Positions 14,177-41,623 of a DNA stretch of 64,000 nt are shown here, piece by piece. How positions within the stretch are numbered: position 1 is the first letter of the stretch; each line of letters opens with the position of its first letter. The notes under the pieces are model-generated. The model did not search any database, was not told the DNA's origin, and saw only the letters and a list, made by a program, of their open reading frames with translations. The stretch lies in the NCBI GenBank assembly GCA_030041435.1, contig JASHNW010000064.1, positions 1 through 64,000 on the forward strand, read 5' to 3'. Source of the stretch: Acidobacteriaceae bacterium (GTDB lineage: Bacteria; Acidobacteriota; Terriglobia; Terriglobales; Acidobacteriaceae). Made by a program: the position numbers and the translations under genes.

Positions 14177-14184
14177 TCTGCCTC

Positions 14185-24436: not shown

Positions 24437-25735
24437 CTACGATTGCGGCGTCTTCGGCGTGGAGCCCGCTGTCGGCGCCTGTAACGGAGCCGTCGTCTTG
24501 TCCGCGGCTTTCTCGCGCTGCGCCGCCGCCCGTTGCAGCTCCTGCTCGTGCTTGGTCTTTTCCGCCGCCGCCTCCGCATCGGTCACATAGCGGAACTCCT
24601 GCAGCCGTCCCGGATACTGCTCGGTCGTGAACACGCGGTTCTGCTTGTCGATGGCCACGCCCACCAGCGCCTTGAACTGCCCCGGCAGCTCTCCATGTCC
24701 CATCCCGATATAGGTCAGCAGCTGCCCTTGCTGGTTGAACACCTGCAGCCGGTCCTGCATCTCGTCCGCCACCCAGATGTGCCCATCGCTGTCGACGGCA
24801 ATCCCCTTCGGCCGCGCGAAGTATCCCGGGCCGTCACCCGGCTTGCCGAACGTGCTGATGAAATTCCCGTCCGCATCGAAAATCTCCACCCGGTCGTTCA
24901 GCGTGTCGGTCACATAAACGTTTCCGTCTTTGTCCACAGCCACGCCCTGCGGCGCCGCAAAATCGCCAGGCGATGTCAGGTAGTGGTTCTTTCCTCCCGT
25001 TCCAATCCGCCGCAGCAGCTTCAGACTGTCCGCGTCGTACACCAGCACCTGGTCCTGCTGCGTGTCCACCACATACAGGAACCGGTTGTTCGCGTCGATC
25101 GCCAGCCCCACCGGATCCTGCAGCCCTTCGGCAATCTGGTCCTGCAGCTCGTGCTTCGGGCTGAAGACGAGCACCCGGTGCATCTTGGCGTCGGAGACAA
25201 ACAGCCGGTCGTCGTCGTCGATCGCCAGACCGTTGATCCAGCCAAAGTGCGCTTCAAAGCCATTGCGGATGAGCTGCGTGTCGTGGGTCTGTGTATTGAA
25301 AATGAATACCGCCCCGACCCGTTGATCCGCCACGTAAACCAGGCCCTTCGAATCCACGGCGATCCCATACGGACCGATCATCTGGAACGGAAATGTCTTC
25401 GGGTTGAACTTTTCCTGGTCGGTCTGGCCGCCCGCCAGCCGGTCCATCCAGGTGGCTTTCGGCTTCGCATTCGCCGCCGGCGTGTAGTCGATCTTTTCTC
25501 CTGCAAAATAATCCGTCCAGCGCACGCGGGCGATGTTGGGTGGGCTCGGCCACACCAGCTTCGTCGGATCGAACGCGAACTTGTGCGGTCCCGCCGCGGC
25601 TGCGGCTGTGCTGTCGGTCTTCTTCTTTTTCCTGTCTCCCTGGGCGGAAAACGGCAGCGTCACGCCGATGGCCAGCAGCAGCAACGCCACCAGCATCCTG
25701 CGTTGATACATCGAATGGTTGGGGATACGGCGCAT
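24437..25735 (-). CDS. Secreted NHL-repeat beta-propeller protein (redox locus)
   Basis: The ATG at 25735 is preferred to 25747, which directly abuts the previous TAA, because TGGAGAAAATT precedes it. The product is 432 residues with a signal peptide (MLVALLLLAIGVTLPFSAQG), a lysine-rich stretch, and six NHL blades (GPYGIAVDSKGLVYVAD, PQGVAVDKDGNVYVTDT, PKGIAVDSDGHIWVADE). It ends in a Gln/Ala/Lys-rich helical tail. NHL proteins often accompany multihaem cytochrome-porin gene sets, probably as scaffolds. It is the last gene after the 16-haem cytochrome with only 12 bp between, and a second NHL protein is in the same locus. No enzyme function can be assigned. Confidence 0.83.
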   Translation of the reverse strand: MRRIPNHSMYQRRMLVALLLLAIGVTLPFSAQGDRKKKKTDSTAAAAAGPHKFAFDPTKLVWPSPPNIARVRWTDYFAGEKIDYTPAANAKPKATWMDRLAGGQTDQEKFNPKTFPFQMIGPYGIAVDSKGLVYVADQRVGAVFIFNTQTHDTQLIRNGFEAHFGWINGLAIDDDDRLFVSDAKMHRVLVFSPKHELQDQIAEGLQDPVGLAIDANNRFLYVVDTQQDQVLVYDADSLKLLRRIGTGGKNHYLTSPGDFAAPQGVAVDKDGNVYVTDTLNDRVEIFDADGNFISTFGKPGDGPGYFARPKGIAVDSDGHIWVADEMQDRLQVFNQQGQLLTYIGMGHGELPGQFKALVGVAIDKQNRVFTTEQYPGRLQEFRYVTDAEAAAEKTKHEQELQRAAAQREKAADKTTAPLQAPTAGSTPKTPQS

Positions 25736-25747
25736 AATTTTCTCCAT

Positions 25748-27232
25748 TTACTGCTTCGCGGGAATCGGGGCCGTCGTCTGTTCCATGTTGAGGCGGTTCT
25801 TGTGGCACATATCGCAGAACGCCATGTTGTTGGCCTGATCGTTCACCAGCAGATCGGGCTGCGCCGACGCATGCGGCTGGTGGCAGGAGAGGCAGCTCAG
25901 TTTCGTCTTCACCTTGCTCTGGTTGGTGGGATCCATCACGTCGGAAACCGGGTGATACTCCACCGGATGCCCCAGCCCAAAGCGCAGCGGCAAGATCGGC
26001 ACTTTGTTCTTCTGGTAGTAGTCCCCGGGCAGCGTCACCGCGCCGTTGAAGATCGTCAGATTGCCGTCGGCCGTTTTCTGCGGAACGGAATCGGGTCCGT
26101 GGCACTCGAGGCACAGTCCATTGCCCGCCACACGCAACAGCTTCTCGTTGTCCCCGCCGTGCGGCGTGTGGCAAATGCCGCAGGCCTGCCCAAATGCGGG
26201 CTGATGGTGGAAGGGCTTCTTCCGCAGGTCGTCGATATCCGTGTGGCAACCGGTGCAGATGCTCACCCCATTCGTCTTCGGCAGCCCCGGCTCCCTGCTC
26301 GCGTGCGGGCTGTGGCAGTCCGTGCAGTCGCCCATCGCCCCCGGATGCGGCACCTTCGCCCCGGCAATCAGCTTTACCTGATCGTCGTGGCATGTCCCGC
26401 ACAGCGACTTGATGTCCGTCTGCGTCAGCACCACCTTGCCGTCCTTCGCCTGCGCGTGGCAGGTATCGCAGCCGCCCGGCGCAAAGGGAGGATGCGTAAA
26501 CTTCGCCATCAGCTTCGGCTGCGCCGACTGATGCGGATCGTGGCACTCGAGGCAGTCAGCCGTCGCAAACGGCTGGTTGTCGTGCGCCTTCTGGAGGTCG
26601 GCATCCTTCGCGTCATGGCAGTCGAGGCACAGCGCCGGAGCCGGCTTGGTCAGGTGAAACTGATTTTCCGGCGTAGGATCCGGACCGGTTTTATGGATCG
26701 TGTGGCACGTGTCGCACCCCATATCGAGCGCGGCATGCCGGCTGCCTTTGTCCGGCACGTGGAGTCCCGTGTCGTGGCAGCTCAGGCACAGATTCTCTTT
26801 CTCCCCGCCCGAGGTCGGCTTCAGCAGCTGATTCTTGTTGTCGCTCGTATGCGGATCGTGGCACGCCAGGCAATCCCGCACCGCGGGCGGATGCACCGTG
26901 CCCTGGATGTCCGCGGCCTTTTTGTCCGCATGGCAGCTCACGCACAGTGACACCGGTGTCGCGGTGATCAGCTTCACCCGCGTCACATCTTTGTTGACGC
27001 GGATCTCATGGCAGCTCAGGCACCCCATGGCCATCGCCGAATGCACCGACTTGCCCTTTGTCTTGTCCTGATGGCATTCCAGGCACTTCGCCGGGTCCGT
27101 CTTCGCGTCCAGCGGCACCGGATGAATTTGCGCCGGCGCGCGCGTGCTCAGCAACGCGGCAAGTGCCATGCCGAGCCAGACACACCTGATGAGAGCGCGT
27201 CCCCGCCCGCATCCCCACATGGTCCGGCCCAT
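25748..27232 (-). CDS. Secreted 16-haem c-type cytochrome
   Basis: I count 16 CXXCH motifs in order: CLECH, CLSCH, CVSCH, CLACH, CLSCH, CDTCH, CLDCH, CLECH, CDTCH, CGTCH, CTDCH, CTGCH, CGICH, CLECH, CLSCH, CDMCH. Several occur as doubled CXXCH-x-PH repeats (cytochrome c3/NrfB/DmsE-like). A signal sequence (GMALAALLSTRAPAQ) is present and there is no lipobox or membrane anchor. The density, about one haem per 30 residues, suits a molecular wire. The start is uncertain: ATGs at 27232 and 27280 are possible and the frame opens at 27301; GGAGG is one base from the 27232 ATG. It lies upstream of, and is co-transcribed with, an NHL protein. Confidence 0.88.
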   Translation of the reverse strand: MGRTMWGCGRGRALIRCVWLGMALAALLSTRAPAQIHPVPLDAKTDPAKCLECHQDKTKGKSVHSAMAMGCLSCHEIRVNKDVTRVKLITATPVSLCVSCHADKKAADIQGTVHPPAVRDCLACHDPHTSDNKNQLLKPTSGGEKENLCLSCHDTGLHVPDKGSRHAALDMGCDTCHTIHKTGPDPTPENQFHLTKPAPALCLDCHDAKDADLQKAHDNQPFATADCLECHDPHQSAQPKLMAKFTHPPFAPGGCDTCHAQAKDGKVVLTQTDIKSLCGTCHDDQVKLIAGAKVPHPGAMGDCTDCHSPHASREPGLPKTNGVSICTGCHTDIDDLRKKPFHHQPAFGQACGICHTPHGGDNEKLLRVAGNGLCLECHGPDSVPQKTADGNLTIFNGAVTLPGDYYQKNKVPILPLRFGLGHPVEYHPVSDVMDPTNQSKVKTKLSCLSCHQPHASAQPDLLVNDQANNMAFCDMCHKNRLNMEQTTAPIPAKQ

Positions 27233-27347
27233 GCCTCCGGGGTCTCTGCGGATTGGTCTCTGCAGCGTGGTGGACGTCATAGATGAACCAACAGCGCGCA
27301 TTCAGTTCCTGCAAGGCCCATTAAAACCAACCCGGGTGCCTCCCGGC

Positions 27348-27363
27348 TGTGCGATATATCACC
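27348..27363. promoter_or_regulatory. CRP-like site in a divergent cytochrome promoter region
   Basis: TGTGC-GATATA-TCACC matches the CRP consensus TGTGA-N6-TCACA at 8 of 10 positions. It lies between the divergent 16-haem and 4-haem genes. The rest of this ~380-bp intergenic stretch (27233-27613) shows no gene. A perfect version of the same motif is in the other divergent region of the locus. Confidence 0.35.
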
Positions 27364-27613
27364 GACGTCATGTACCCGCATCCTCGCCGATCCGGGCCGG
27401 TTCCATTGCGCACTCCGTGCGGAGGTCTCCTGCCGTTGCATCCTTCCCCTCGCCCGAACTGCTGGCCGCCTTTCTCTAATGCGCTCGCTTGCTGCGCCCC
27501 TGGCTTGCCAGGCGCTCCGCCGCCTGTTCCGGGAATGGTCACTCGCACTGCCCCACTGAAGTTCCGCCGGACCCCGGACGATGAGCACAGTAAGCCCAGG
27601 GAGGCTCGGCTCG

Positions 27614-28468
27614 GTGAATCGAAGGGTGTTGCTCGCAGTGGTGTTCCTGGCGGCCGCGGGTGTGGCGGCGGCCCAGATCGTGTCGCCGTCGACGGATGTT
27701 CTCGGCGCACACCTCAACTACGGCCGCGGCTGCGGCGCCTGCCACGCGCCCCACAGCGGCGCCACCGGCAACGGCAGCGCCCCATCCGCCGGCTCCGGAT
27801 CCGGAAACGTCGCCCTCTGGGGCGAGGATGTTTCCAGCCTGTACGGCAAAACCATCGTCACCGGCGGCGGCGCCTATGTCGAAGTCCTGCCCACCAGCAT
27901 GTCCGCTGCGACGCCCGACGTTGCCGGGATGCTCACCTGTCTCAGCTGCCACGACGGCAACTATGCGCAGACTGCCATGATGAAGAACAAAATCTATGAG
28001 GCCCTGCCGTCCACATACGGCACCGCCAACTCCGTTCCCACCCTCATCGGCGTCAATGGAAACTACCTCAGCGAACATCCTGTCGGCCTCAGCGCCGCCA
28101 TCACCTGCGGCAGCTCGTCCGGCTGGGACTGCACCCAGTCCAACGGCGTTATTCACATGACCGGGGCGCGTTCCTCGCAGTTCGTCTCCAACTACGGCTT
28201 TTTCGTCCAGCCGGGCAGTTACAACAACACCGCCGTAGTGGTGTGCACCACCTGCCACGAGCCGCATGTCATGAACGTCGTCACCGTCGCCAGAGGTTCC
28301 AGCTCTGGCTTGCCCGCGGGCACCTACGCCACCATGTTCTTCCTGCGTGCGCCCTACAATCCCAACGATCCCAACCCGCAGTCCAATCAAACTGCGCAGT
28401 TTTGCCGCCAGTGCCACGCCGACAAATCGAACGAGATGAATGGCAGCACCGCCAGAACCGTGTTTTGA
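27614..28468 (+). CDS. Secreted tetrahaem c-type cytochrome, copy 1
   Basis: GTG 27614 is favoured over ATG 27581 because GGGAGG lies 9 nt upstream and the signal peptide (VNRRVLLAVVFLAAAGVAAAQ) then aligns with that of its paralogue. The 284 residues hold four CXXCH sites (CGACH, CLSCH, CTTCH, CRQCH) with long haem-free stretches. The start DVLGAHLNYGRGCGACHAPH and the end QTAQFCRQCHADKSNEMNGS are shared with the copy at 34493. Probably periplasmic. It is divergent from the 16-haem gene and convergent with the 12-haem gene. Its electron partners are not known. Confidence 0.87.
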   Translation: MNRRVLLAVVFLAAAGVAAAQIVSPSTDVLGAHLNYGRGCGACHAPHSGATGNGSAPSAGSGSGNVALWGEDVSSLYGKTIVTGGGAYVEVLPTSMSAATPDVAGMLTCLSCHDGNYAQTAMMKNKIYEALPSTYGTANSVPTLIGVNGNYLSEHPVGLSAAITCGSSSGWDCTQSNGVIHMTGARSSQFVSNYGFFVQPGSYNNTAVVVCTTCHEPHVMNVVTVARGSSSGLPAGTYATMFFLRAPYNPNDPNPQSNQTAQFCRQCHADKSNEMNGSTARTVF

Positions 28469-28506
28469 AATTCTGCAAACCCTCTGCCGGCGATGCTGGC
28501 GGGGGG

Positions 28507-30399
28507 TCACTTCCTTCCGCCCAGCCCGCGCCGCACCACCATCGACGTTACCGTCCCGTCCGGATTGTGCGCCGTCCCGTGGCAGGCCAGAACGCAAGTA
28601 TTCGCGGCGTGACTGTAGGAGATGGGCAGGCCGCCGGTCGGCGCCACCACATTCATGTCGAAATTCACCAGCCGCTCGCCGCTGATGCTTCCGCTGGTGG
28701 CCCCCATGCCGTGCGCCGTATGGCACGTGGAGCAACTGAAGCCCGCGCTGATGTGACTGGCGTGCTGGTTCCAGCTCGCGCTCTGCACGACCTTCGATAA
28801 GTCATGGCACTTGGCACACAGCCCGTAAGGCCCATTCACGCTCAGGTCCGGATTGGGAAAGAGATTCGAGATCCGGCTGCCCGGCGTGGCCGCCTGGCTG
28901 AACTCGTAGCGCCGCTCCAGAATGTGCGTCCACTTCGATCCGTGCGGGCCGTTCGCTCCCGTGCCCCCGAACTCGCGGTTGTCATCGCTGTTGTGGCAGT
29001 CGGTGCAGAAGATCTGCGATCCCATGGCGCGGCCCTGCGTCACGCCATCCAAGTTCAGCATGTACGAGCGCAGGCTCGGCTGCGGATACGGGCTGCTCCG
29101 CGGATGCATCACCGGATGGCTCGACGTCGCTGTGACCGCAAACTGCGGAATCAGATTCAGCGGATCGCCCGCCGACACCGCGCGCACCGGGAAGTATCCG
29201 TAGATCGGCAGCACCTGTTTGCCCGCGCTCGTCCCGTGGCAGCGCAGGCAGTTCTCGTATTGATTCACCGCAGGCGTGAGCACCGTGACTCCGTCGCTGG
29301 CGCTGATGCCGAGTGCGCCCTTCTGCGAGACACGGATGAGCGGCGGCGGCGGGAACAGGCTCACAGCTTCTGAGCCATGCGCATTGTGGCAGTCCACGCA
29401 GGTTGCGTGCCGGTTGTTGTTCAGCAGCACCGCCTCCGCCGCATCGTGGGGATTCGTGGAGGTCGGGAACGGATGCCCCACCTTGGGCGAGGCGTATTCG
29501 GCGAACACATTCTCCCAGGTCGGCATAGGCGAAACATTCGCGCCGTTGTGGCACCCCATGCACGCCTGCTCGTTCTGCCCGCGCAGCAGCCGCGCCGTGC
29601 TGCCCGCGTTGTGCGGCGTGTGGCATGCGATGCACGCGTCCGCCCCTACCGTCGTGTAACTGCCCAGCTGTGCCGTAGACGCAATCTTGTCGCTGGAGAG
29701 CGCATGCGCGCTCGTTGCCCAGTCCGCCAGCGGATTCACGTGCCCGCTCATCTGCCGCGCCGGATCGTGGCAGGCCAGGCACAGCGCGCCGTACGAGCTG
29801 TCCTTCACCAGAAAATTCTGCGATACCACATCTCGCGCCTGCACGTGCGGGTCGTGGCACGACGTGCACTCGACGTTGCCGCCGATCAGCTTCACTGCGC
29901 CGGTAGGATCTGCGGTCTTGCCGCTGGCTGCCAGCGTGGACACCAGATCGACGTTGTCTTTGAGCGGCATCGCCAGGCTGAAGGGGTGCTGCGGCTGCAT
30001 GTTGCTGCCGAAAACATCCTGGGTGTACATGGATCCCTTCATCGTCACCTGGCCGTACGCCACCGTCGTTCCCACGGCAACCGTCCCGTCGTGGCAGCTA
30101 AGGCACTGGTTGCTCACACGGCCGAGCGTTGGCTGGCGGCCCGTATTGGCTTCTGTGGTGCTGGTGTAGCTGGTGTACACCTGCGTGGTCAGTTTTTGGT
30201 TCCACAGGCCCCGGTTCAGTCCCGAGTGTGGCGCGTGGCAGTAGGAGCAGGCGTCAGGACGCGCGCCCGTAATCGGCGACTGGCTGCCGGGCCCCAGATT
30301 GTGCACCCCCATCACATCGACTGAGCTCTGCCCGTGCACGCCCGTCCCGCTCAGCGCCAGCGCGATCGCGAGCCCCGCCCCCATCGCCCCGCGCCTCAC
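28507..30399 (-). CDS. Secreted 12-haem c-type cytochrome with one CX3CH site
   Basis: This 630-residue protein has a signal peptide (AGLAIALALSGTGVHG). Eleven CXXCH motifs (CSYCH, CLSCH, CTSCH, CLACH, CIACH, CMGCH, CVDCH, CLRCH, CTDCH, CAKCH, CSTCH) are followed by a twelfth likely site with three intervening residues, CVLACH, near the C-terminus. CX3CH haem sites are rare and can need a particular lyase. The GTG start overlaps the NHL stop (GTGA), so translation is coupled in the isomerase-barrel-NHL-cytochrome operon. There is no lipobox, so if it is surface-exposed it must be held by the barrel. Convergent with copy 1 of the tetrahaem gene. Confidence 0.88.
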   Translation of the reverse strand: MRRGAMGAGLAIALALSGTGVHGQSSVDVMGVHNLGPGSQSPITGARPDACSYCHAPHSGLNRGLWNQKLTTQVYTSYTSTTEANTGRQPTLGRVSNQCLSCHDGTVAVGTTVAYGQVTMKGSMYTQDVFGSNMQPQHPFSLAMPLKDNVDLVSTLAASGKTADPTGAVKLIGGNVECTSCHDPHVQARDVVSQNFLVKDSSYGALCLACHDPARQMSGHVNPLADWATSAHALSSDKIASTAQLGSYTTVGADACIACHTPHNAGSTARLLRGQNEQACMGCHNGANVSPMPTWENVFAEYASPKVGHPFPTSTNPHDAAEAVLLNNNRHATCVDCHNAHGSEAVSLFPPPPLIRVSQKGALGISASDGVTVLTPAVNQYENCLRCHGTSAGKQVLPIYGYFPVRAVSAGDPLNLIPQFAVTATSSHPVMHPRSSPYPQPSLRSYMLNLDGVTQGRAMGSQIFCTDCHNSDDNREFGGTGANGPHGSKWTHILERRYEFSQAATPGSRISNLFPNPDLSVNGPYGLCAKCHDLSKVVQSASWNQHASHISAGFSCSTCHTAHGMGATSGSISGERLVNFDMNVVAPTGGLPISYSHAANTCVLACHGTAHNPDGTVTSMVVRRGLGGRK

Positions 30400-31493
30400 G
30401 GCTGGTCTCCCCGCGCCGCGGTCCGCAAGCCGGCATAGCGAAACACCTGCACGCGGCGGTTAAACGAATCCACCACGAACACGCGGTCGTCGCGATCGAT
30501 GAACAAACCCGTCGGCAGCTGGAACTCACCTGCATGTGTGCCTGCCGCGCCGAAGTAGTACAGCAGCTGTCCCTGCCGGTTGAACACCTGCACCACTCCC
30601 CACAGCGCGTCCACCACGTACAAGTCGCCTTCCGAATCTACGCCGGCCGCCTTCGGCCGAAACATCGCCCCCGGCTGGTCGCCGATCCTCCCGATCGCGT
30701 ATTCGAATTTCCCTGCGCGGTCGAACACCTGCACGCGGAAGTTCATCGCGTCCACCACCAGCAGGTTGTCGCCCTCCAGGCGCAGCTCGGTCGGGAAATT
30801 GAATTCACCCTCCGCTTCCCCTCTCTGGCCGATGGTCGCCAGCACCGTGCCCTGCATGTCGAGGACGTACACCTTGTCGCGCAGCGTGTCGGTCACGAAA
30901 ATCCGCTGCGCGGCCGAATCCACCGCGATGCCCGTCGGCCGTTTGAAATATCCTTCGCCGCCCTTCAGTGCGCCGATTGCCCGTACAAACTTCCCGCCCG
31001 GCTCGAAGACAAAAATCACCCCCGTGTCCGAATCCGTGACGTAGATGTTGTCCTGGGCATCCACCGCCACGCATTGCGGCGACAACATCGAAAATTGTTT
31101 TCCGAGGTGCTGCAGGAATTTGTATTTATGCTGCTCGAAGTCGAAGATGTGTACGCCCGCCGCTCCCGGATCCGTCACGATGACCCTTCCCCGCGAATCC
31201 TCCGCCACGCTGTACGGCCGCACCATGGAGCGGTAGTCCGGCTCACCGGCGATTACATCCCACACCTTGTTCCAGAAGCCCCGGTTCGTCTTTACCTCCG
31301 CTTCGGAGTGGAAGCTTCGCTCCCAGGTGAGCGTGCGCCCGCCATCGAGCGACATCTCCCACATCTCCGGCGGCGTAGCGGACTTCGCCGGCCGTGCGGC
31401 CGACAGCGGGGCAGACAGCACCGCGAGGCCGGCCAGCATCAGAGCCGCGCTCCGCCATCTCCGCCGCAATCCGCTTAGAAGAAGTTGAACCAT
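30396..31493 (-). CDS. Secreted NHL-repeat beta-propeller protein of the barrel-cytochrome operon
   Basis: This 365-residue protein has a signal peptide (ALMLAGLAVLSAPLSAA) and six NHL blades (RPYSVAEDSRGRVIVTD, SPQCVAVDAQDNIYVTD, RPTGIAVDSAAQRIFVTD and others). Its start lies inside the 3' end of the barrel gene (19-bp overlap), and its stop is shared with the next GTG (GTGA). Barrel, propeller and 12-haem cytochrome are thus made as a coupled set, which supports a complex. It is paralogous in architecture to the NHL protein at 24437. A scaffold or docking role is inferred. Confidence 0.84.
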   Translation of the reverse strand: MVQLLLSGLRRRWRSAALMLAGLAVLSAPLSAARPAKSATPPEMWEMSLDGGRTLTWERSFHSEAEVKTNRGFWNKVWDVIAGEPDYRSMVRPYSVAEDSRGRVIVTDPGAAGVHIFDFEQHKYKFLQHLGKQFSMLSPQCVAVDAQDNIYVTDSDTGVIFVFEPGGKFVRAIGALKGGEGYFKRPTGIAVDSAAQRIFVTDTLRDKVYVLDMQGTVLATIGQRGEAEGEFNFPTELRLEGDNLLVVDAMNFRVQVFDRAGKFEYAIGRIGDQPGAMFRPKAAGVDSEGDLYVVDALWGVVQVFNRQGQLLYYFGAAGTHAGEFQLPTGLFIDRDDRVFVVDSFNRRVQVFRYAGLRTAARGDQP

Positions 31494-33310
31494 CGCGATA
31501 TCCCGAAGTAATACGACGCCACAATCTGCGGTGGCAGCCCGGTACCCCCGAAACCCTGCTCCAGCCGTGCATAGCCGCTCGTGTAATACAGCTTGCGCGT
31601 CTGGTACTGGATCAGCGCGTTATATTGTTCGTTCTGGTTGGCCGACGATAGCCCGTCGCTGGAGATGTTGCTGTTCGCGCGCGCATAGGCCGCCTCCAGG
31701 ATCAGCTTCTTCACCGGCGTGCTCGCCAGCCCAAAGGAATAACTGCTGCCTCCGTACAAAGCGATCAGGCTCGCCGGAATCACCGGCGGCGGCACCGGGA
31801 TTGTCGTCAGTCCTCCACCCGTCGTCAGCGCCTGCCCGCTGGCTTTGGAGTAGCTGCCGTTCGCGTTGATCCACGCCCCATAACCCATGCTGGCGTTGTA
31901 GCTCTCGCTGCTGCTCGTCGTTCCTGCCTGCTCCGTCAGCCCCGTCTGTGACGCGCCCGCGCCCGCGCTCACGTTGAACTGGCCCCACCGCCTCCGCACA
32001 TTCACCGTGTAGTTGTAAAACGAGTTCATGTACGTCACCAGCAGCGTCTGCACGTTCTGCGCGTACCCGAACGTCCCGTTCACGTGCCATCCCGCAATCT
32101 CCCGCGAGTAATTGCCGCTGGCCGAGAAGCCCAGCGTGTCCTGGCCCGTCTGGTCGTCCACGTTTTCCGTCACCGTCACCGATCCGTTGAAGGTCCCCTC
32201 CAGAAGGTTCTGCATATACGTCGCGCTTCCGCCGTACGACCGCACGCCGTAGCTTTCTCCCAGAAACGTCTGCGTCCGCAGCTCGCCGAACAGCGACGTC
32301 TGCAGGTGCGGCATCGGCGTGTATGTCGCCACGCCCAGCACGTCCAGAGAATTCGACGTCTCATTCGCATTGATCCCCGCCACCACTCCGCCGGCCGCCA
32401 CAATCGACTGCAGCAATTGCCCGCTCAAATTGTCCGAGTATGTTGTATTCGCCAGGAAGGCCAGCTTTTCCGTCGGGTGCACCGCCGCCGCCGCGGTAAT
32501 CAGATCGATCGTTCCGCTCGTGGACGTTCCCAGATAGCTGCTGCTGAACTGCGACCGGTTGTAGCCGGCTGAAACCGACCCCTGCAACGGCAGCAGGTGG
32601 GTTACATTGATCCCCTCCGCGTCGTCGCTGGAGTGCGTCTCGGCAGGCAACCCCTCGCTCACCACATCCGGAATCAGCGATTGCGCGCCCCCGTTTGCGT
32701 AGTACGCGCCCATGTTGAAACCCGCCAGCTTGTATCCCGAATGCAGATTCAGCGAGTGAAACGCGTTTTGCCCTTCGTCGTTCACCCCATACACCGAATA
32801 CTGGCTCGTGCCCTGCTGGTACCCGGCGGAGAAACTCGGCGCGTTTTGCAGATTTTCGCTCCAGTTAACCCCCAGCGTGCCGCTGTTGCCGTGAGTCACG
32901 TAATTCGGCAGGCCCGGAACGGCATAGTTCCCTTCGCTGTTGTAGGCCTTTGAATAACTGATCGAGCCGGGAAAATGGCTGCCGCCGAAGATATTGCTGC
33001 TCAGGTTGACTCCGCTGGCGTTGGAGATGGACTGAAAATCCGAATCCGCCCGCGATTGGTTCAGATAGTAACTGGCCGTGAACGACAGAAAGTTGGGGTT
33101 ATAGTATTGCCCCGTCAGCGTGCCCGCTCCCGCCAGCGCCCATGTGTGGTCCGACTCGGTTTCATTCCCGTATTCGGCGGAGTAACCCGGTGAGACTGTC
33201 CCGCTCAGGTGTGTGCTCAGCTGGCCGAGTTTCACTTGCGCAGCCACTGGCCATCCCAGCAGCAGTACCCCTGCCTGTGCCAGCCACGCAACTCGTTGCC
33301 AACTCACCAC
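31475..33310 (-). CDS. Outer-membrane beta-barrel protein, candidate porin of a porin-cytochrome conduit
   Basis: GTG 33310 gives 611 residues with a signal peptide (VAWLAQAGVLLLGWPVAAQ); AAGGA lies 9 nt upstream. The frame runs on to 33424, but those residues are low-complexity and overlap the isomerase gene. The mature part is made of alternating amphipathic strands rich in Y, S, N and G with no helices or cysteines. It ends ISRWFNFF, the C-terminal aromatic signature read by the BAM machinery. By composition it is a large (~20 or more strands) barrel, as in MtrB/OmbB-type proteins that hold multihaem cytochromes in the outer membrane. Sequence identity to MtrB was not evident; the role rests on gene context. 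Confidence 0.75.
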   Translation of the reverse strand: MVSWQRVAWLAQAGVLLLGWPVAAQVKLGQLSTHLSGTVSPGYSAEYGNETESDHTWALAGAGTLTGQYYNPNFLSFTASYYLNQSRADSDFQSISNASGVNLSSNIFGGSHFPGSISYSKAYNSEGNYAVPGLPNYVTHGNSGTLGVNWSENLQNAPSFSAGYQQGTSQYSVYGVNDEGQNAFHSLNLHSGYKLAGFNMGAYYANGGAQSLIPDVVSEGLPAETHSSDDAEGINVTHLLPLQGSVSAGYNRSQFSSSYLGTSTSGTIDLITAAAAVHPTEKLAFLANTTYSDNLSGQLLQSIVAAGGVVAGINANETSNSLDVLGVATYTPMPHLQTSLFGELRTQTFLGESYGVRSYGGSATYMQNLLEGTFNGSVTVTENVDDQTGQDTLGFSASGNYSREIAGWHVNGTFGYAQNVQTLLVTYMNSFYNYTVNVRRRWGQFNVSAGAGASQTGLTEQAGTTSSSESYNASMGYGAWINANGSYSKASGQALTTGGGLTTIPVPPPVIPASLIALYGGSSYSFGLASTPVKKLILEAAYARANSNISSDGLSSANQNEQYNALIQYQTRKLYYTSGYARLEQGFGGTGLPPQIVASYYFGISRWFNFF

Positions 33311-33380
33311 TCTGTGCCATCCTTCACCCGGAGTTCCGCGGCCCCTGGTCTCCGCGTCGCCTCCTGGCACTTCCCGCGCC

Positions 33381-34406
33381 TCACTGCAACTCTTCGACCT
33401 TCGCGTTCTGCCGCAGCCGCGCATCCAGCGCAGCGCGCAACTGGTTTCTCTTGTTCTCGTGCAGTTGCTTTTCCAGCTGTGCTTTCACTTCGTCGAACGT
33501 CGCCAGCCCCGCAGGCGTGTGCGCGCCCAGCCGCACGATCGTCCAGGCCTGATCGAGCTGGATCAAATCGCTCACCTCGCCCACATGCATTCCGCGCAGC
33601 GTCGCCGCCACCGGAGGCGGCAATTGATCCACCGGCACCGGCTTGTGCTGGCCCATCATCACGCGGTAGTCATCGTCGGAGGCTTTCTCCGCCAGCAGCC
33701 CAAATTCTTCTGCTGACCTCGTCGCCTTCGCCTGGCGCAGCGCCTGTTCCGCCCGCTTCCTTCCCTCGCTCAGCTGGGCGGCCGTGGCATTCGCCGGAGG
33801 CAGCACAGAAATCGTCTGGAAGGTGTAGGACTCCGGGTGCTCGAACCGCGCCGGGTTTTTCCCGTAGTAAGCCCGCGCCTCAGCCTCGGAAACTGTGCTC
33901 CGGTTCTCCACTTCCGTCTTCAGCAGCGCATCGATCAGCAGCGACCGCCGAATCTTCTCGTCCAGCAGCTTCTGCGAACCCTGAAAATCGCCCTGCACGA
34001 ATGCACGAAATGCATCCGGTGAACCAAACTGTTTGCGGAATTCCGCTTCCGCCCGCTGCATCTGCGCCGGCGCAATCGTCATCTTCCGCCGCAGCGCTTC
34101 CTGATACACCAGCTCCTCGAAAATCATCATCTTCATCGCGCCGTCGCGAATTTGCGCTTCCAGCGGTTTCGGAATTCCGTTGTGCTGCCCTGCGTACGGA
34201 AAAATCGCATATTCCTCGCGCAGCAGGTCCGCGCCCGTCAGCACCGCGCCATTCACCCGTGCCACCGGCATATTCGCCGCGGGCTGTGCCGCCGTCTGCT
34301 GAACAGGCGGCTGGCTCAGCGCCGTCGGCGCATGCGATGCCACCTGAGCCCCGGCTGTCGCGCACACCAGCAGCAGAATCGCGGAAATTGAGTTTGTGTG
34401 CTTCAT
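33381..34406 (-). CDS. SurA/parvulin-like peptidyl-prolyl isomerase, periplasmic
   Basis: The ATG at 34406 follows CCAGGACGGTCAAC and gives 341 residues with a signal peptide (SISAILLLVCATAGAQ). An N-terminal helical chaperone region (VNGAVLTGADLLREEYA ... FEELVYQEALRR) precedes a PpiC-type segment (SYTFQTISVLPP, SAEEFGLLAEKASDD, LIQLDQAWTIVRLG). Such proteins help barrels and secreted cytochromes fold, and they occur in many porin-cytochrome gene sets. It is the first gene of the isomerase-barrel-NHL-12-haem operon, with a strong terminator only 32 bp upstream of its ATG. Confidence 0.82.
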   Translation of the reverse strand: MKHTNSISAILLLVCATAGAQVASHAPTALSQPPVQQTAAQPAANMPVARVNGAVLTGADLLREEYAIFPYAGQHNGIPKPLEAQIRDGAMKMMIFEELVYQEALRRKMTIAPAQMQRAEAEFRKQFGSPDAFRAFVQGDFQGSQKLLDEKIRRSLLIDALLKTEVENRSTVSEAEARAYYGKNPARFEHPESYTFQTISVLPPANATAAQLSEGRKRAEQALRQAKATRSAEEFGLLAEKASDDDYRVMMGQHKPVPVDQLPPPVAATLRGMHVGEVSDLIQLDQAWTIVRLGAHTPAGLATFDEVKAQLEKQLHENKRNQLRAALDARLRQNAKVEELQ

Positions 34407-34437
34407 GTTGACCGTCCTGGGTGACGTTGTTGCCCGG

Positions 34438-34472
34438 AAAAAAAGGGAGGGAAGTCTGTCGCACCCCTCCCT
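34438..34472 (-). terminator. Rho-independent terminator after tetrahaem copy 2
   Basis: On the minus strand AGGGAGGG and CCCTCCCT form a perfect 8-bp stem around a 13-nt loop, followed by a run of seven T (34444-34438). It starts 21 nt after the tetrahaem stop. The isomerase ATG is at 34406, so the downstream operon must rely on read-through or a very short promoter. Confidence 0.85.
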
Positions 34473-34492
34473 GTCATGCTTTGCAGCAAAGG

Positions 34493-35374
34493 TCAGAAAA
34501 CGGTCCCCGCCGTGCTGCCGTTCATTTCGTTCGACTCTCCGCCATGGCACTGACGGCAGAACTGCGCCGTCTGGTTGGTGTAGATATTGCCATCGGCCGG
34601 GTTATACGGGCCGCGCAGGAAGAACATGGTCGCGTACGATCCCGCCGGCAAACCGGACTTCGAGCTGGCCGTGATGTTCACCACATTCATCACGTGCTGG
34701 TTGTGGCAGGTCGTGCACAGAACCACCGGCGTGTTGTTGTAGTTGCCCGGGCTGACAAAGAAGCCGTAGTTCGTGATGAACTGCGACGAATGCGTTCCGG
34801 TCATCTGCACGGTGCCGGTGGCGCTGACGGTGCAATCCCAGTTGTACGCGCCCCCGCAACCCATCACCGCGTTCAGGCCCACCGGGTGGTCGTTCAGGTA
34901 ATTGCCGACCGTGGAGCCGTCGTCGCCCAGCAGCGTTGGGACGTTGTTCGCGGTGCCGTATGTCGATGGCAGCGTCTCATACACCTTGTTCTTCATCATT
35001 GCGCCCCGGGCGTAGTTGCCGTCGTGGCAGCTCAGGCACATCAGCACGCCGCCCACGTCCGGTGTTGCGGCCGTCAGGGCGGTCGGCAGAACTTCCACGT
35101 ATACCGCGCCGTTGTCCATCTGGCCGGTCGTGATCGTCTTGCCGTACAGGCTGCCGACATCCTCGCCCCACAGTGCGACATTGCCCGAAGTGGCATCGGC
35201 CGTTTTGGCGTTGCCGTTTCCATAGGCGCCGCTGTGCGGTGCGTGGCAGGCCGCGCAGCCGCGGCCGTAGTTAAGGTGGGCGCCGAGGACGTCGGTCGAC
35301 GGCGTTGTGATCTGGGCCGCCGCAAACGTCGCGGCTGCCAAGAGCATGAGAGGTATAAAAACGAAACGCTTCAT
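34493..35374 (-). CDS. Secreted tetrahaem c-type cytochrome, copy 2
   Basis: The ATG at 35374 has AGGAGG upstream and yields 293 residues with a signal peptide (FVFIPLMLLAAATFAAAQ). There are four CXXCH motifs (CAACH, CLSCH, CTTCH, CRQCH). It is collinear with the copy at 27614 over its whole length (LGAHLNYGRGC, GNVALWGEDV, SLYGKTI, CLSCHDGNYA, NYGFFV, SNEMNGST), so the two arose by duplication. The frame is open far upstream to 36259, but that region lacks any start signal and overlaps the divergent gene. It is followed directly by a strong terminator, so it is probably a highly expressed single gene. Confidence 0.9.
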   Translation of the reverse strand: MKRFVFIPLMLLAAATFAAAQITTPSTDVLGAHLNYGRGCAACHAPHSGAYGNGNAKTADATSGNVALWGEDVGSLYGKTITTGQMDNGAVYVEVLPTALTAATPDVGGVLMCLSCHDGNYARGAMMKNKVYETLPSTYGTANNVPTLLGDDGSTVGNYLNDHPVGLNAVMGCGGAYNWDCTVSATGTVQMTGTHSSQFITNYGFFVSPGNYNNTPVVLCTTCHNQHVMNVVNITASSKSGLPAGSYATMFFLRGPYNPADGNIYTNQTAQFCRQCHGGESNEMNGSTAGTVF

Positions 35375-35751
35375 AGATTGAAGCCTCCTGGTACGGTTTT
35401 CGGGTCTCCTGGTTGAACCGCGACGCTGGCTTTGCTGGTCTGGTCTTCGTTTGGATTCTGAATCGCAAGACTGCGCGAATGTGCCGTTGCCGTCCGGCCC
35501 TGTCGATGCTGTACTCCTGCGTGTGCTGCCTGCTGCTGAAGCCGCCCGCATGCCTGCCGACCGAATGGATTGAGTTCCCCGTGGAACTTCACCCTGCAAC
35601 CACCAGCGCTCCAACCCCGCATCATCGGTGAGGTTCCCCAATGGGACTCGTTCCCTCTTTGGGAATCGGATCCGGGAAATAGTCGAATATTCGTTGACAT
35701 TCGCGTGCGTCCTGACTTCGTCCATGCAATCATCTCCGGCGCTCCCCACGA

Positions 35752-35767
35752 TGTGACCATGGTCACA
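35752..35767. promoter_or_regulatory. Perfect CRP-type palindrome
   Basis: TGTGACCATGGTCACA is a perfect 16-bp palindrome and an exact TGTGA-N6-TCACA. It lies in the 577-bp divergent gap (35375-35951), 378 bp from the tetrahaem ATG and 184 bp from the TPR ATG. I could not place a convincing -10/-35 at a fixed distance on either strand, and nothing else stands out in this gap. A CRP/FNR-superfamily regulator is the likely ligand. Confidence 0.55.
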
Positions 35768-35951
35768 GTCCGCTGTGACGCAGATTGCTCCATTCCCCTC
35801 ATGTCCGCCGTTACAGTGAATCAGCAGGCTGGAACTACGCGGAAATCCGCCTCCGCAGCGCCCTTCGCTCTCCATCCGCGGGTTTTCCGGCGCACGGCGG
35901 AGCAGCTGCAGTGTCCGATCCTGCGACAGCCCTGCGTGGAAGGAGCTCACC

Positions 35952-36644
35952 ATGGCCCTCAAACCCGCCTCCAGCCCCGCGTCCCCGCAGACCCTGCCCG
36001 CCCTCCAGGTCTGGAGCATGGCTTTCATCTTCCTGGCCATCGGCCTGGCCATCGGCTGGCTCTTTCCCGGTTCAACGGCTCCTTCAGCCTCCACGCAGGC
36101 TGCCGCCGCGCCGTCACCGCCAGCCAGCGCCATTGGCAACGCGCACAGCATCACCATGCAGGACATGAAGCAGATGGCCGACCAGCAGGCCGCGCCGCTC
36201 CTCGCAAAGCTCAAGTCCGATCCCAATAATCCCGCCCTGCTCGCGCAGCTCGGCGCCATTTACCACATCACGCATCAGTTCCAGCAGGCGGCCGCGTACT
36301 ACGGAAAAGCCGTTGACGCCGATCCCGATAACGTCGTTCTGCGCACCAGGCTCGCCTCCAGCCTCTTCCGCGCGGGCGATGTCGACGGCGCGCTCGCCCA
36401 GCTCAACCTGGCGCTCAAACAACGCCCCTCCGATGCCAATGCTCTCTTCGATCTCGGCATGATCCGTCTGCAGGGCAAAGGCGATGGTCAGGGCGCGGTC
36501 GCCGCCTGGCAGCAGCTGTTAAAGGCGAACCCTCAGCTCAGTCCCGATCGCAAGGCCACGGTGGCGAACCTGATTGCCGGCGTAATGGCTACGCTCGACA
36601 GCCGGCACCCAACGCACGGAGAACGCAACCATGACGGATACTAA
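35952..36644 (+). CDS. Membrane-anchored TPR protein (CcmH/NrfG-like), first of a pair
   Basis: The 230-residue product starts at an ATG with GGAAGGAG upstream. One N-terminal membrane segment (VWSMAFIFLAIGLAIGWLF) is followed by an Ala/Pro-rich linker and three to four TPRs (ALLAQLGAIYHITHQFQQAAAYY, ALAQLNLALKQRPSDANALF). NrfG/CcmI-like TPR proteins assist haem attachment to apocytochromes. Being next to 36 predicted haem sites makes such a role plausible, but no haem-lyase gene is present. It overlaps the next gene by 14 bp. Confidence 0.78.
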   Translation: MALKPASSPASPQTLPALQVWSMAFIFLAIGLAIGWLFPGSTAPSASTQAAAAPSPPASAIGNAHSITMQDMKQMADQQAAPLLAKLKSDPNNPALLAQLGAIYHITHQFQQAAAYYGKAVDADPDNVVLRTRLASSLFRAGDVDGALAQLNLALKQRPSDANALFDLGMIRLQGKGDGQGAVAAWQQLLKANPQLSPDRKATVANLIAGVMATLDSRHPTHGERNHDGY

Positions 36645-37299
36645 AGCAGCGCCGGCCCCGGCGCCGAACGCGCGCTGGTCGATACAGCAGGCCCTCGTCC
36701 TCGCCGCCGCCTGCTTTCTCGCCGGCATCGCCGGTGGTTACATGCTGCACGTCTGGCGCGCTCCCTCCGCCCCGGCATCGGCGCAGGCCGGCCCTCCCGC
36801 TCGCGAGGCGAGCGCGCCGGCGCCCGCGACCAATGATCCTGCTCGTCTCCGGCAACTGGCGGACGCCAACGCAGCGCCCATCCTTATCAAACTCCAGTCC
36901 GATCCCGAGAACCCAGATCTGCTCACCAGCCTCGGCAACCTCTATTACGACGCGCAGCAGTATCCCACCGCAGTCGATTACTACGCCCGCGCCCTCAGGG
37001 TCCGTCCTGCCGACGCCAGCGTCCGCACCGACATGGGCACCGCGTACTGGTACGTGGGCAACGCCGACGCGGCCATTGCGGCTTTCAATCAGGCGCTCGT
37101 CGACTCTCCCAACAATCCCAACACGCTCTTCAACCGCGGCCTGGTCAAATGGCAGGGCAAACGGGACGCCGCAGGCGCGCTCGCCGACTGGAACCAGCTG
37201 CTCGAGATGAATCCTGCCTACGGCGGCCGCCAGCAGGTTGAGCAGCTCATCGCCGAGGTCCAGAATCAGGCAGCCACGGCGCCATCGGCATCGCGGTAA
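36631..37299 (+). CDS. Membrane-anchored TPR protein (CcmH/NrfG-like), second of a pair
   Basis: This 222-residue paralogue of the preceding gene has one N-terminal membrane helix (ALVLAAACFLAGIAGGYML), a Pro/Ala linker, and TPRs (LLTSLGNLYYDAQQYPTAVDYY, DAAIAAFNQALVDSPNNPNTLF). The two share the LIKLQSDPENP/LAKLKSDPNNP start of the TPR domain, so they are a tandem duplication. The start is inside the preceding gene, implying coupled translation. A role in cytochrome c assembly is inferred from family and position. Confidence 0.77.
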   Translation: MTDTKAAPAPAPNARWSIQQALVLAAACFLAGIAGGYMLHVWRAPSAPASAQAGPPAREASAPAPATNDPARLRQLADANAAPILIKLQSDPENPDLLTSLGNLYYDAQQYPTAVDYYARALRVRPADASVRTDMGTAYWYVGNADAAIAAFNQALVDSPNNPNTLFNRGLVKWQGKRDAAGALADWNQLLEMNPAYGGRQQVEQLIAEVQNQAATAPSASR

Positions 37300-37368: not shown

Positions 37369-37938
37369 TCAATAAATTCCCGGAATCAGCCGCTTTGTAC
37401 TGCGGCTGTAGTCTTCGTAATCGGCTCCAAAAGCCAGGCGGAGCGCGGTCTCTTCAACATGAATGCGATACAGCACAGCCAGCGTCGGAGGAACGAGCAC
37501 AACCGCAAAACAGGCCCAGGTGCGTGCGTGCAGGGCAAATGCCAGGAAAATCAGTTCCAGGCCGAGATAGGAAGGATGACGGACCAGGGCGTAGAGTCCG
37601 CTGCGCTGTAATCTCTGCCCGGCGCGCATCGCGACGTTTGCGCTAAAGGCTCTGCCCAGCGTGCCGATGGCGACTGCACGAACTCCCAGCCCCAGAATCA
37701 AAATCCCCAGCGCCGCCGGCCGCAGCCAGCTATGGCTCCCCGGCATGTCGACCGGGAGAAAGCCGTGCATCCACTCATCGATTTTGAACGATGCAATGAT
37801 GACCACCCAGAGGACGATCTGCGTTCCGCGATCCTGTATCTTGCCTGCGCCCTCGCGCGTTGTTGTCAGCACCGCAATCAGGAGTTCCCCCACTCCCCAC
37901 AAAGTTGTCAGCGCACTAAAAAAGAACTCCAGATTCAT
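37369..37938 (-). CDS. Isoprenylcysteine carboxyl methyltransferase-like membrane enzyme
   Basis: This 189-residue, four- to five-helix membrane protein has the ICMT/PEMT-type SAM-binding signature at its C-terminus: GLYALVRHPSYLGLELIFLA, then VEETALRLAFGADYEDYSRSTKRLIPGIY (HPSY, EE and RLIPG are the key groups). Bacterial members methylate small lipophilic carboxylates or amines; the substrate is rarely known. It is divergent from a DesK/DesR-like pair and shares its control region, so it is the best candidate target of that system. The gene converges on the TPR pair. Confidence 0.8.
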   Translation of the reverse strand: MNLEFFFSALTTLWGVGELLIAVLTTTREGAGKIQDRGTQIVLWVVIIASFKIDEWMHGFLPVDMPGSHSWLRPAALGILILGLGVRAVAIGTLGRAFSANVAMRAGQRLQRSGLYALVRHPSYLGLELIFLAFALHARTWACFAVVLVPPTLAVLYRIHVEETALRLAFGADYEDYSRSTKRLIPGIY

Positions 37939-37996
37939 GACCGTCCTCGCGTGTCGTAAGAGAAGAATGCCCTGGACGGCCGGCGAAAAACAGTAG

Positions 37997-38063
37997 CAGC
38001 TGTCATCGACGAGAGATGACAGGCATCACCATGACGCCTGTCATGCGTTCTCCGTGACAGCTG
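37997..38063. promoter_or_regulatory. Four-arm nested palindrome between ICMT and the DesK/DesR genes
   Basis: Four 9-bp arms lie symmetrically around 38030: CAGCTGTCA (37997-38005), ATGACAGGC (38016-38024), GCCTGTCAT (38036-38044) and TGACAGCTG (38055-38063). The outer pair and the inner pair are each perfect inverted repeats. Both outer spacers are 10 nt, and every arm contains CTGTCA or TGACAG. This is the expected form of a multi-dimer response-regulator operator serving both divergent genes. Confidence 0.65.
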
Positions 38064-38102
38064 CGGGTGCCGGGGCCGTTCGCGTGGTGGGATGATGAAC
38101 GT

Positions 38103-39281
38103 ATGAGCAACCGGCAGGTCCGCGCACCGGAACCGAACGCGGCAGCCCACGTCACCCAGGCCAGGCGGGAGTTCGTCCGCGGCCGCTGGATCGTGCGCGG
38201 GTTGGGGTTGCTGTATGCCGCATATTTCTTTCTCGTGCCGGCGTACCGGCACTCGTTTGCCGTCTGGACGGAATGCGCGGCGTTTTTCGCGGCCTTTCTG
38301 GTGCTTTTTTTCCTTGCCGTGCTGCTGACCGGCCGCCGCCAAACCGTGACGTTTGTGCTGTTCTTTCTCTTCACCCTTCTCTATTACCCCTTCAGCCAGG
38401 AAACCTATGGAGTGTTTGTCTACCCTTTCGCGATCCTCTGCCTTTACCTCACTCGCATGGGCACTCTGTTTCTGGTGCTGGCTGCGATGATGGCCGGAGT
38501 CGTGGTGGAGACTCGATATCTCGGTCACCCCCTGATTACCGCCGAAGAAACTCTCTTCTTCTGCGTCATTATTGGGCTGACCAACTTTGCCTTTGCCCAG
38601 CAGGCCCGAACCAATGCTCTTCTGCAACGCGCCAATTCTGAGATCGAACGTCTGTCCCAGGAAGCAGAGCGCGAGCGCATCGCACGCGATCTGCACGACC
38701 TCCTTGGCCATACCCTCACCGTTATCGCGGTGAAGCTCGATCTCGCCCGGCGGCTCCTCTCCCACGACTCGGACCGCGCACGCAACGAGATCGTGGACGC
38801 GGAGCAGACCGCCCGGAATGCGCTTGCCGAGGTGAGAGAAGCCGTCTCCGGCTACCGCGCCGATGGTCTGGACGCGGAGATCGGCCGCGCCCGGCGAAGC
38901 CTGCTTTCCGCCGATGTCAGGCTGACCGCTACTCTCGCTTCGGTGCAACTTTCCTCTCGCCAGGTCGACGTGCTTTGCCTTGCCCTGCGCGAGGCCATAA
39001 CGAACATCGTCCGCCATGCTCACGCAACCCTGTGCCGCGTAGCCCTCCTCGAAAAGGACGGGACGATTCATCTCACCATCGAGGACAATGGGCTGGGCGG
39101 CCCGATTCGTGAAGGCAACGGCCTGCGCGGCATGCGCGAGCGCCTTCAATCCGTGGCTGGGAACGTGAACCTGGCAGCTTTGGCCAATGGAGGAACAAGC
39201 CTCCAGCTGACGTTGCCGCTGGAGAGTGAACCTCCGGCACAATGGGCTTCGCGATTTGCCGGAGAGGCGGATACGCTTTGA
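38103..39281 (+). CDS. DesK-like sensor histidine kinase (HisKA_3 family)
   Basis: The ATG at 38103 gives 392 residues; the frame is open to 38067. Five to six membrane helices (about residues 28-165) form a compact sensor without a periplasmic domain, as in DesK. A short linker and the HisKA_3 box with phospho-acceptor H198 (ERIARDLHDLLGHTLTVI) follow, then an ATPase domain (IVRHAHATLC, IEDNGLGG, GLRGMRERL). DesK-type kinases sense membrane thickness or fluidity. The stop overlaps the response-regulator TTG start. The neighbouring ICMT-like membrane enzyme fits a lipid- or membrane-related output. Confidence 0.86.
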   Translation: MSNRQVRAPEPNAAAHVTQARREFVRGRWIVRGLGLLYAAYFFLVPAYRHSFAVWTECAAFFAAFLVLFFLAVLLTGRRQTVTFVLFFLFTLLYYPFSQETYGVFVYPFAILCLYLTRMGTLFLVLAAMMAGVVVETRYLGHPLITAEETLFFCVIIGLTNFAFAQQARTNALLQRANSEIERLSQEAERERIARDLHDLLGHTLTVIAVKLDLARRLLSHDSDRARNEIVDAEQTARNALAEVREAVSGYRADGLDAEIGRARRSLLSADVRLTATLASVQLSSRQVDVLCLALREAITNIVRHAHATLCRVALLEKDGTIHLTIEDNGLGGPIREGNGLRGMRERLQSVAGNVNLAALANGGTSLQLTLPLESEPPAQWASRFAGEADTL

Positions 39282-39892
39282 CGCAACCGATACGCGTGGT
39301 GCTGGCGGAGGACCAAAGCATGTTGCGGGGAGCGCTCGCAGCCCTGCTCTCGATCGAACCTGATATTGAGGTGCTCGGATCTTTCTCCGATGGAGAGCAG
39401 GCCCTGCATGCAGTCGGGAAACACCGTCCGGATGTTTTGGTCACCGACATCGAGATGCCGAAGATGAGCGGACTCGAACTCACCGCCCGGGTGAGAGAGC
39501 TCTACCCGGACACACACGTCCTCATCCTGACCACCTTCGCGCGTGCCGGATATTTGCGGCGAGCACTGGAAGCCGGAGCCTCTGCCTATCTTCTCAAGGA
39601 CCGCCCCTCGGAAGAACTCGCCGACGCGGTCCGGGGAGTCAGTCGCGGAGCTCGCATCGTGGATCCCCAGCTGGCCTCGCAGATCTGGAGCACCGAAAAA
39701 GATCCGCTTACCGACAGAGAACGCTTGATCCTGCGCCGCGCCGGCGACGGTGAAACCACCGCGGAGCTGGCCCGTTCGCTGCGGCTCACAGAGGGGACCG
39801 TGCGCAACTATCTCTCCGAGGCCATCTCCAAGCTGCACGCCTCCAACCGGTTTGATGCCGCCCGGATTGCTCGCAATAAAGGATGGCTTTGA
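39278..39892 (+). CDS. DesR-like response regulator (NarL/FixJ family)
   Basis: A TTG start at 39278 is preferred: it overlaps the kinase stop (TTGA), has GGAGAGG 9 nt upstream, and yields 204 residues beginning MTQPIRVVLAEDQ, the usual receiver N-terminus. Phospho-acceptor is D57 (VLVTDIEMPKMSG), with conserved T and K (ILTTFARAG, YLLKDRPSEE). The C-terminal LuxR-type HTH (LTDRERLILRRAGDG ... LTEGTVRNYLSEAISKL) binds DNA as a dimer. It forms a two-gene operon with the kinase and likely binds the nested palindrome upstream. Confidence 0.9.
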   Translation: MTQPIRVVLAEDQSMLRGALAALLSIEPDIEVLGSFSDGEQALHAVGKHRPDVLVTDIEMPKMSGLELTARVRELYPDTHVLILTTFARAGYLRRALEAGASAYLLKDRPSEELADAVRGVSRGARIVDPQLASQIWSTEKDPLTDRERLILRRAGDGETTAELARSLRLTEGTVRNYLSEAISKLHASNRFDAARIARNKGWL

Positions 39893-41544: not shown

Positions 41545-41623
41545 CCCGCGGCGATGCAGCAGGGGCTTTCGCGTTCGTCGTCGACACGCGTGATCGGGAT
41601 TTGCCGGGAGTGTGAGAAACGGA

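Follow-up and report, generated by a model that had tools for sequence, protein, structure and literature searches.

MtrCAB of Shewanella (PDB entry 6r2q), OetABI and OmcE of Geobacter sulfurreducens (7tfs) are the described systems closest to the locus reported here. OetABI comprises a porin and the lipoprotein outer cytochrome OetB, often with genes of nanowire-type cytochromes nearby (Murali 2023, PMC10553843). It is apparently the same system as the Desulfobacterota operon coding for a six-bladed propeller, 16-haem and 26-haem cytochromes and a peptidyl-prolyl isomerase (PPIase) (Skennerton 2017, PMC5539420). In OmcE, the protein of entry 7tfs (PMC12954529), and in OmcS a histidine of one subunit ligates the haem of the next subunit (PMC9473688), while the way in which electrons pass from filament to cell in Geobacter is described as poorly understood (PMC10553843). 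In Acidobacteria, a 16-haem cytochrome of Koribacter versatilis was noted in Arctic peat in 2013 as possibly relevant for Fe(III) or humic reduction; the accessible text of that report mentions only decahaem-like matches, says that OmcE/S/Z were not found and gives no cassette (PMC3669403). Here we analyse a 64,000-nt stretch of DNA (the window) from an Acidobacteriaceae bacterium (GCA_030041435.1, contig JASHNW010000064.1). Its locus at 24437-37299 is probably best explained as a whole by an MtrAB-like conduit encoded together with an OmcE-type extracellular cytochrome system.

The core of the locus codes for a hexadecahaem cytochrome (H16), a dodecahaem cytochrome (H12), tetrahaem cytochromes (H4, present here as H4a and H4b), a large outer-membrane β-barrel, two NHL β-propellers (NHL1 and NHL2) and a PPIase. 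Exactly four reading frames of at least 60 aa in the window contain three or more CXXCH motifs, with 16, 4, 12 and 4 haem sites (36 in all), as anticipated by the original prediction made for this DNA, which listed four secreted cytochromes with about 36 haems. The count for H12 is made up of 11 CXXCH and one CX3CH. For comparison, the best 80 of 133 H4 relatives from named genomes were taken, giving 68 loci, all titled Acidobacteriota or its subgroups; in annotating loci, matches under 150 bits for H16 and H12, 200 for NHL, 80 for TPR and 60 for H4 were dropped. Counted as CX2-4CH, 16 haems are kept in 50 of 55 orthologous frames of these loci, four in 82 of 84 and 12 in 56 of 59. Since the counts of 16, 4 and 12 recur in orthologous frames, the motifs are not due to chance, and this explanation was dropped.

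H16 (25748-27301, minus strand, 16 CXXCH) probably has its true start at about 27232. Its profile, built from alignment A4, matches 6r2q_A of the Mtr complex at E=4.9e-30; the listing gives this chain an odd molecule name, and we take it to be MtrA from the entry and the chain length. The NCBIfam model of the DmsE family decahaem cytochromes is matched with 175 bits, under its curated cut-off of 192. The orthologues have 17 conserved histidines outside CXXCH for 16 haems. H16 spends about 31 residues per haem, compared to 52 in H12 and 73 in H4, a spacing that fits an extended wire. By profile comparison, H16 is homologous to MtrA, and as it is MtrA/DmsE-like, the core of the cluster appears nearer to MtrAB than first thought. 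It also resembles, by description, the Koribacter versatilis cytochrome in haem number and in its acidobacterial origin.

The barrel gene (31475-33424, minus strand) codes for a 649-aa protein with a C-terminal F. No match was found for it in Pfam or NCBIfam, nor did its profile match any PDB sequence up to E=1. An AlphaFold2 model computed with 17 orthologues (pLDDT 71.5, pTM 0.58) is a large β-barrel, with 28 strands of at least 10 residues as counted from the listed elements. Both fold comparisons placed 6r2q_B (MtrB) first in the PDB: Foldseek with E=3e-9, TM 0.45 and rmsd 11.9, VIA-align with Z 15.0 over 439 aligned residues, followed by a match at 13.5. Hence the outer-membrane barrel announced earlier is upheld by the model, and its description as not evidently MtrB-like is right for the sequence, whereas by fold MtrB is the first match. 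The model favours an MtrB-like conduit without proving it. Together, the MtrA/DmsE-like H16 and the first rank of MtrB by fold lend support to the proposal of a conduit of the porin-cytochrome type, and it is very likely that the locus encodes a trans-outer-membrane electron conduit.

The locus shares with MtrCAB an MtrA-like multihaem cytochrome (by sequence), a large barrel with MtrB as its best, though loose, fold match and a large multihaem partner. It differs in having 16 haems in H16 versus 10 in MtrA, about 28 predicted barrel strands versus 26 in MtrB, additional propellers, PPIase and tetrahaems, and an outer candidate, H12, that is not a lipoprotein and carries an OmcE-type domain. 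Compared with OetABI by description only, it likewise encodes a 16-haem cytochrome, a β-propeller and a PPIase together, along with a barrel and tetrahaems. Unlike OetABI, it has no 26-haem cytochrome, its outer candidate has 12 haems and no lipobox, and its nanowire-type genes are of the OmcE type, not OmcS/OmcX.

H12 (28507-30399, minus strand; ATG start at 30384) is a fusion of two domains, a tetrahaem one of the OmcE type and an octahaem one. The N-terminal domain with haems 1-4 occupies 29752-30330, and the C-terminal octahaem domain, whose last haem motif is CX3CH, occupies 28507-29751 (both minus strand). The profile of the N-terminal part (alignment A3) matches OmcE (7tfs) at E=8.6e-25 with four colinear haems and 9yuq, another deposited multihaem protein, at E=2.8e-19, along nearly the full length of both. 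With hhalign the match to OmcE covers 178 columns (E=6.3e-23). On this evidence, the N-terminus of H12 is clearly homologous to OmcE. A search of plasmids with H12 found no match.

The tetrahaem genes are H4a (27581-28468, plus strand), a duplicate copy lying inverted between H12 and H16, and H4b (34493-35374, minus strand; corrected start 35374), directly upstream of the PPIase gene; each has four CXXCH. As H4a is on the opposite strand, it is outside the transcript of the cluster. hhalign aligned 178 columns of H4 and the N-terminus of H12, keeping all four haems in register (E=1.8e-22), and only 58 columns of H4 and OmcE (E=3.5e-11). The controls (H16 and the C-terminus of H12) gave 15-46 columns with E values between 1.4e-6 and 6.5e-4 and probabilities reaching 90%, which shows that haem motifs score by themselves. 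However, each of the three real scores exceeded those of all 60 shuffles in which haem motifs and histidines were kept in place and the other columns permuted. H4 is thus homologous to the N-terminus of H12, as judged from these profiles. In 22 aligned rows H4 has, besides four CXXCH, four invariant other histidines (H44, H58, H166 and H229), which we infer to be haem ligands. In a joint alignment the histidines of OmcE and H4 come in the same order, the N-terminal one of H4 being shifted relative to that of OmcE.

As in OmcE, then, there are four haems and four other histidines in the same order, and homology to it extends to the N-terminus of H12 and to standalone tetrahaems from other acidobacterial genomes. 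Unlike OmcE, the H4 proteins of the window are longer and diverged, the H12 domain is joined to an octahaem, and the acidobacterial proteins are not known to form filaments. H4 has 293-295 aa with the signal, OmcE 232 aa, and the frames of standalone relatives mostly 207-291 aa. The earlier comparison of the parts with Geobacter and Shewanella conduits is partly supported, yet it missed the homology to OmcE, which is seen in the first domain of H12 and by a less direct route in the tetrahaems.

The system is a real and conserved one in Acidobacteriota. A search of 100 genomes around that of the window with H4a found relatives in 17 of them, the window's own included, at 28 loci. In the 16 other genomes most of the remaining six proteins adjoin H4 and the gene set is mostly complete; exceptions include L046, which gave no frame for the barrel, as well as L047 and L063, which reach contig ends. 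The H4 alignment (A1) has 22 rows, the two H4 of the window and those from 20 of the 28 loci, with own-gene copies, second segments and fragments left out; A2, A3 and A4 have 17, 18 and 19 rows.

All seven core genes occur in 46 of the 68 named loci. The survey of related genomes suggested earlier thus recovers the gene set, and the seven-gene cassette, found in loci all named as acidobacterial, agrees with the idea of a distinct Acidobacteriota set. The plain order H16-NHL1-H4-PPIase-barrel-NHL2-H12 was found in 29 named loci, and the full order of the window, with H16-NHL1 behind H12 and an inverted extra H4 between them, in 11. Of the 22 incomplete loci 17 are under 15 kb; as for the remaining five, the sequence of L066 breaks off inside H16, a separate NHL2 frame is lacking in L127, and L070, L072 and L113 are considered below. 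The position immediately upstream of the PPIase gene is taken by an H4 in 64 of 65 cases. In a tree of H4 without two partial sequences, 20 of the 21 copies that do not adjoin a PPIase gene form one clade (support 100/99; the bootstrap is not fully settled), which speaks for one duplication; the remaining copy (L124) is placed elsewhere.

Relatives of H12 were searched for with its profile in 396 acidobacterial genomes, with at most three candidates scored in each, so that the counts are lower bounds. At E 1e-20 there are matches in at least 48 genomes; they cover at least 545 of 643 positions in at least 27 genomes, as counted from the listing, and are mostly tetrahaem-only in the others. The barrel profile matched in eight of the 396 genomes, twice weakly. 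Compared to at least 48 for H12, this makes the barrel seem the faster to diverge.

Loci of 20 of the 48 genomes were inspected, 17 of them outside the family of the window and 17 of the 20 chosen for a full-length H12 match. Fused H12 is present in all 17 chosen loci, with 11 haems in L151 and 12 elsewhere, and a standalone OmcE-type tetrahaem in 15 of them (not in L162 and L163). At least one NHL propeller was found in all 20 inspected loci and a PPIase match in five, and frames matching the H16 profile carry from 5 to 42 haems. The standalone tetrahaem of L157 matches 9yuq at E=2.4e-30 and OmcE at E=4.5e-26 in the PDB. In L166, H12 is replaced by adjacent tetrahaem and octahaem genes, and the octahaem protein begins with a signal-like sequence of its own and, like H12, has CX3CH as its last haem motif; in L164 and L165, from one genus, tetrahaems and octahaems are likewise encoded separately. 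Fusion in H12 versus separate genes elsewhere thus gives a Rosetta-stone-like link between the OmcE-type module and the octahaem.

Two of these loci contain H16-like proteins of unusual size. L166 (4614-6416, plus strand) encodes a 600-aa protein with 21 haems, and its cassette also codes for two tetrahaems and the separate octahaem. L165 (13457-16552, minus strand) has a 1031-aa frame with 42 CXXCH which scores 503 bits with the H16 profile; this giant MtrA-like cytochrome is encoded next to tetrahaems of the OmcE type.

Location, polymerisation, docking, direction and substrate of the system are inferred as follows. Electrons from periplasmic carriers would be received by H16, seated in the large barrel, carried across the outer membrane and passed to H12 at the surface. 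Secreted H4a and H4b would stack, most likely as filaments of the OmcE kind, and relay electrons between the conduit and a partner outside, for instance Fe(III) minerals, humics or another cell. Secretion, folding or docking of the parts may be assisted by the PPIase and the propellers. For filament formation by the H4 tetrahaems we see an even chance; docking of such a filament on the N-terminus of H12 can be proposed only tentatively. More speculative still is the complete picture, in which the OmcE-type N-terminus of H12 caps or nucleates the H4 filament while its octahaem part sits on the MtrAB-like barrel, so that a continuous haem path from the periplasm to the filament tip would be encoded by one cassette spread through Acidobacteriota.

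A number of observations, given in this and the following two paragraphs, tell against this scheme. The fold match of the barrel to MtrB is loose, as its TM and rmsd values indicate, and other large barrels are near: VDAC, LptD and usher barrels come shortly behind MtrB in VIA-align. The barrel could therefore be an unrelated porin or an exporter, for example one secreting the tetrahaems with the help of the PPIase, and electrons would not cross it. This would suit a barrel that belongs to no sequence family, and the adjacency of the tetrahaem, PPIase and barrel genes. It would also suit L070, L072 and L113, where H16 and NHL1 are absent within about 20 kb, so that a barrel gene need not be accompanied by H16. 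L070, from Occallatibacter savannae AB23, contains H4, the PPIase, the barrel, NHL2, H12 and another H4. We nevertheless consider it quite improbable, because MtrB came first in both fold comparisons and a 16-haem MtrA homologue is encoded by 50 frames of the 68 loci.

Other points concern the filament. Cytochrome filaments as conduits are disputed even in Geobacter (PMC11077965). The H4 profile finds 9yuq at E=2.1e-8 and OmcE directly at a weak E=0.11. A single-sequence search of the PDB with H4a returned no cytochrome, only an unrelated chain at E=1.9, and OmcE as a query found neither H4a nor H4b at E up to 10. Consequently, the link of H4 to OmcE is mostly transitive. The AlphaFold2 model of H4 was poor (pLDDT 46.9) and was not used. 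An explanation in keeping with these results is that the conduit is real, but each H4 acts as a monomeric shuttle, either soluble or bound to the surface, and the likeness of the H12 N-terminus to OmcE reflects an ancestral fold and nothing more. H4 is longer than OmcE and most standalone relatives and diverged, without a direct single-sequence match to OmcE, and since it has exactly four other conserved histidines, a monomer could be self-sufficient. On the other hand, relatives that have diverged less, next to cassettes of this kind in other acidobacterial genomes, do resemble OmcE: the one compared with the PDB is that of L157, and in a search of a small joint set with OmcE 19 of 20 standalone tetrahaem rows were found at E 1e-13 or better. 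Monomeric shuttles are thus rather unlikely in our view, though the least unlikely of the three alternatives discussed here, which are not mutually exclusive.

The remaining points concern anchoring and distribution. Unlike MtrC, H12 has no lipoprotein anchor. Indeed, the cytochromes, barrel, propellers and PPIase of the window are all without a lipobox, as already remarked in the original prediction, which held that no subunit is a lipoprotein; the sole pattern match is in the TPR protein TPR2, inside its N-terminal helix. Among orthologues a crude lipobox pattern occurs in 7 of 56 H12, 5 of 50 H16, 10 of 58 NHL2, 3 of 84 H4, 4 of 64 barrel and 1 of 57 NHL1 sequences, and in the printed examples, read by eye, it is never at the end of the signal peptide. 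H4 is present in only three of 12 genomes of the window's genus, its own included. The barrel profile matched frames in only three of the 20 inspected loci; in several others haem-free frames with an aromatic end occupy the barrel position.

The direction of electron flow is not fixed by anything in the cluster. MtrAB-type systems also serve Fe(II) oxidation. The conduit could accordingly run inward, with Fe(II), humics or partner cells supplying the electrons for oxygen reduction, and inward and outward use are not exclusive. Elsewhere, however, the same genome encodes a cytochrome of the NapC/NirT type and a fusion of a 13-haem protein with a b561-type domain, which resemble quinol-oxidising modules, and we regard inward flow as unlikely. 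Both genes belong to a second multihaem cluster (L061, C23:80001-100000, at 3543-14178), together with an MtrA-like decahaem, an 899-aa protein without a Pfam match, an 11-haem protein and a b561-type protein just under the cut-off. We take the fusion to be of CbcL-like architecture. The second MtrA-like decahaem and the b-type/multihaem fusion could feed the path through the conduit.

Returning to the conduit with an OmcE-type system, porin-cytochrome clusters as such are not new in Acidobacteriota. A 2014 survey of such clusters reportedly included acidobacterial genomes. Gammaproteobacteria or Acidobacteriota account for 21 of 36 cluster-bearing metagenome-assembled genomes in another report (PMC13264449). 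A joint cassette with OmcE-type tetrahaems, or an OmcE-octahaem fusion, was not found in the accessible parts of the open-licence literature. As the conduit, the OmcE-type tetrahaem and H12, the candidate joining protein, are encoded together and conserved, the idea of filament attachment becomes directly testable. The system would also add Acidobacteriota of soil and peat to the range of a plausible mineral or humic respiration; bog, palsa or fen isolate names are borne by many of the named loci.

The other core genes are all on the minus strand. NHL1 (24437-25747) adjoins H16 in the cassette, and NHL2 (30396-31493) lies between the barrel and H12 in most loci; both are secreted propellers, matching Pfam NHL at E=7e-33 and E=1.1e-18, so the two NHL propellers of the first description are in place. 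They also match the scytonemin-associated NHL model ScyF at 130 and 154 bits (cut-off 350). The secreted PPIase (33381-34406, corrected start 34406) is of the PPIC type (Rotamase_2, E=9.6e-19), consistent with the SurA-like isomerase named there, the SurA-like N-terminal matches being weak. Core proteins have signal-like N-termini as read by eye. The reported overlap of the barrel, propeller and 12-haem genes stands as annotated, with 19 nt for NHL2/barrel and 4 nt for H12/NHL2, the latter only with a GTG start of H12; barrel and PPIase overlap by 44 nt as annotated, the barrel start being uncertain.

TPR1 (35952-36644) and TPR2 (36631-37299), both on the plus strand, are TPR proteins of the same kind, each with TPR matches and, by eye, an N-terminal membrane helix. 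They are possible accessories, and a TPR gene of this kind is near the cassette in 31 of the 68 loci. Their presence was predicted correctly, while the likeness to NrfG is weak, NrfG being near the bottom of many TPR matches (E 0.003 and 0.009). A cytochrome c nitrite reductase system was dropped, since there is no likely NrfA among the ten proteins scanned and the TPR proteins called NrfG-like are generic. DMSO respiration was dropped as well, with no reductase among the same ten. The flank at 37369-42886 is apparently unrelated as read by eye and encodes an isoprenylcysteine-methyltransferase-like protein, a histidine kinase with a response regulator, a fumarase and a ThrE-like membrane protein.

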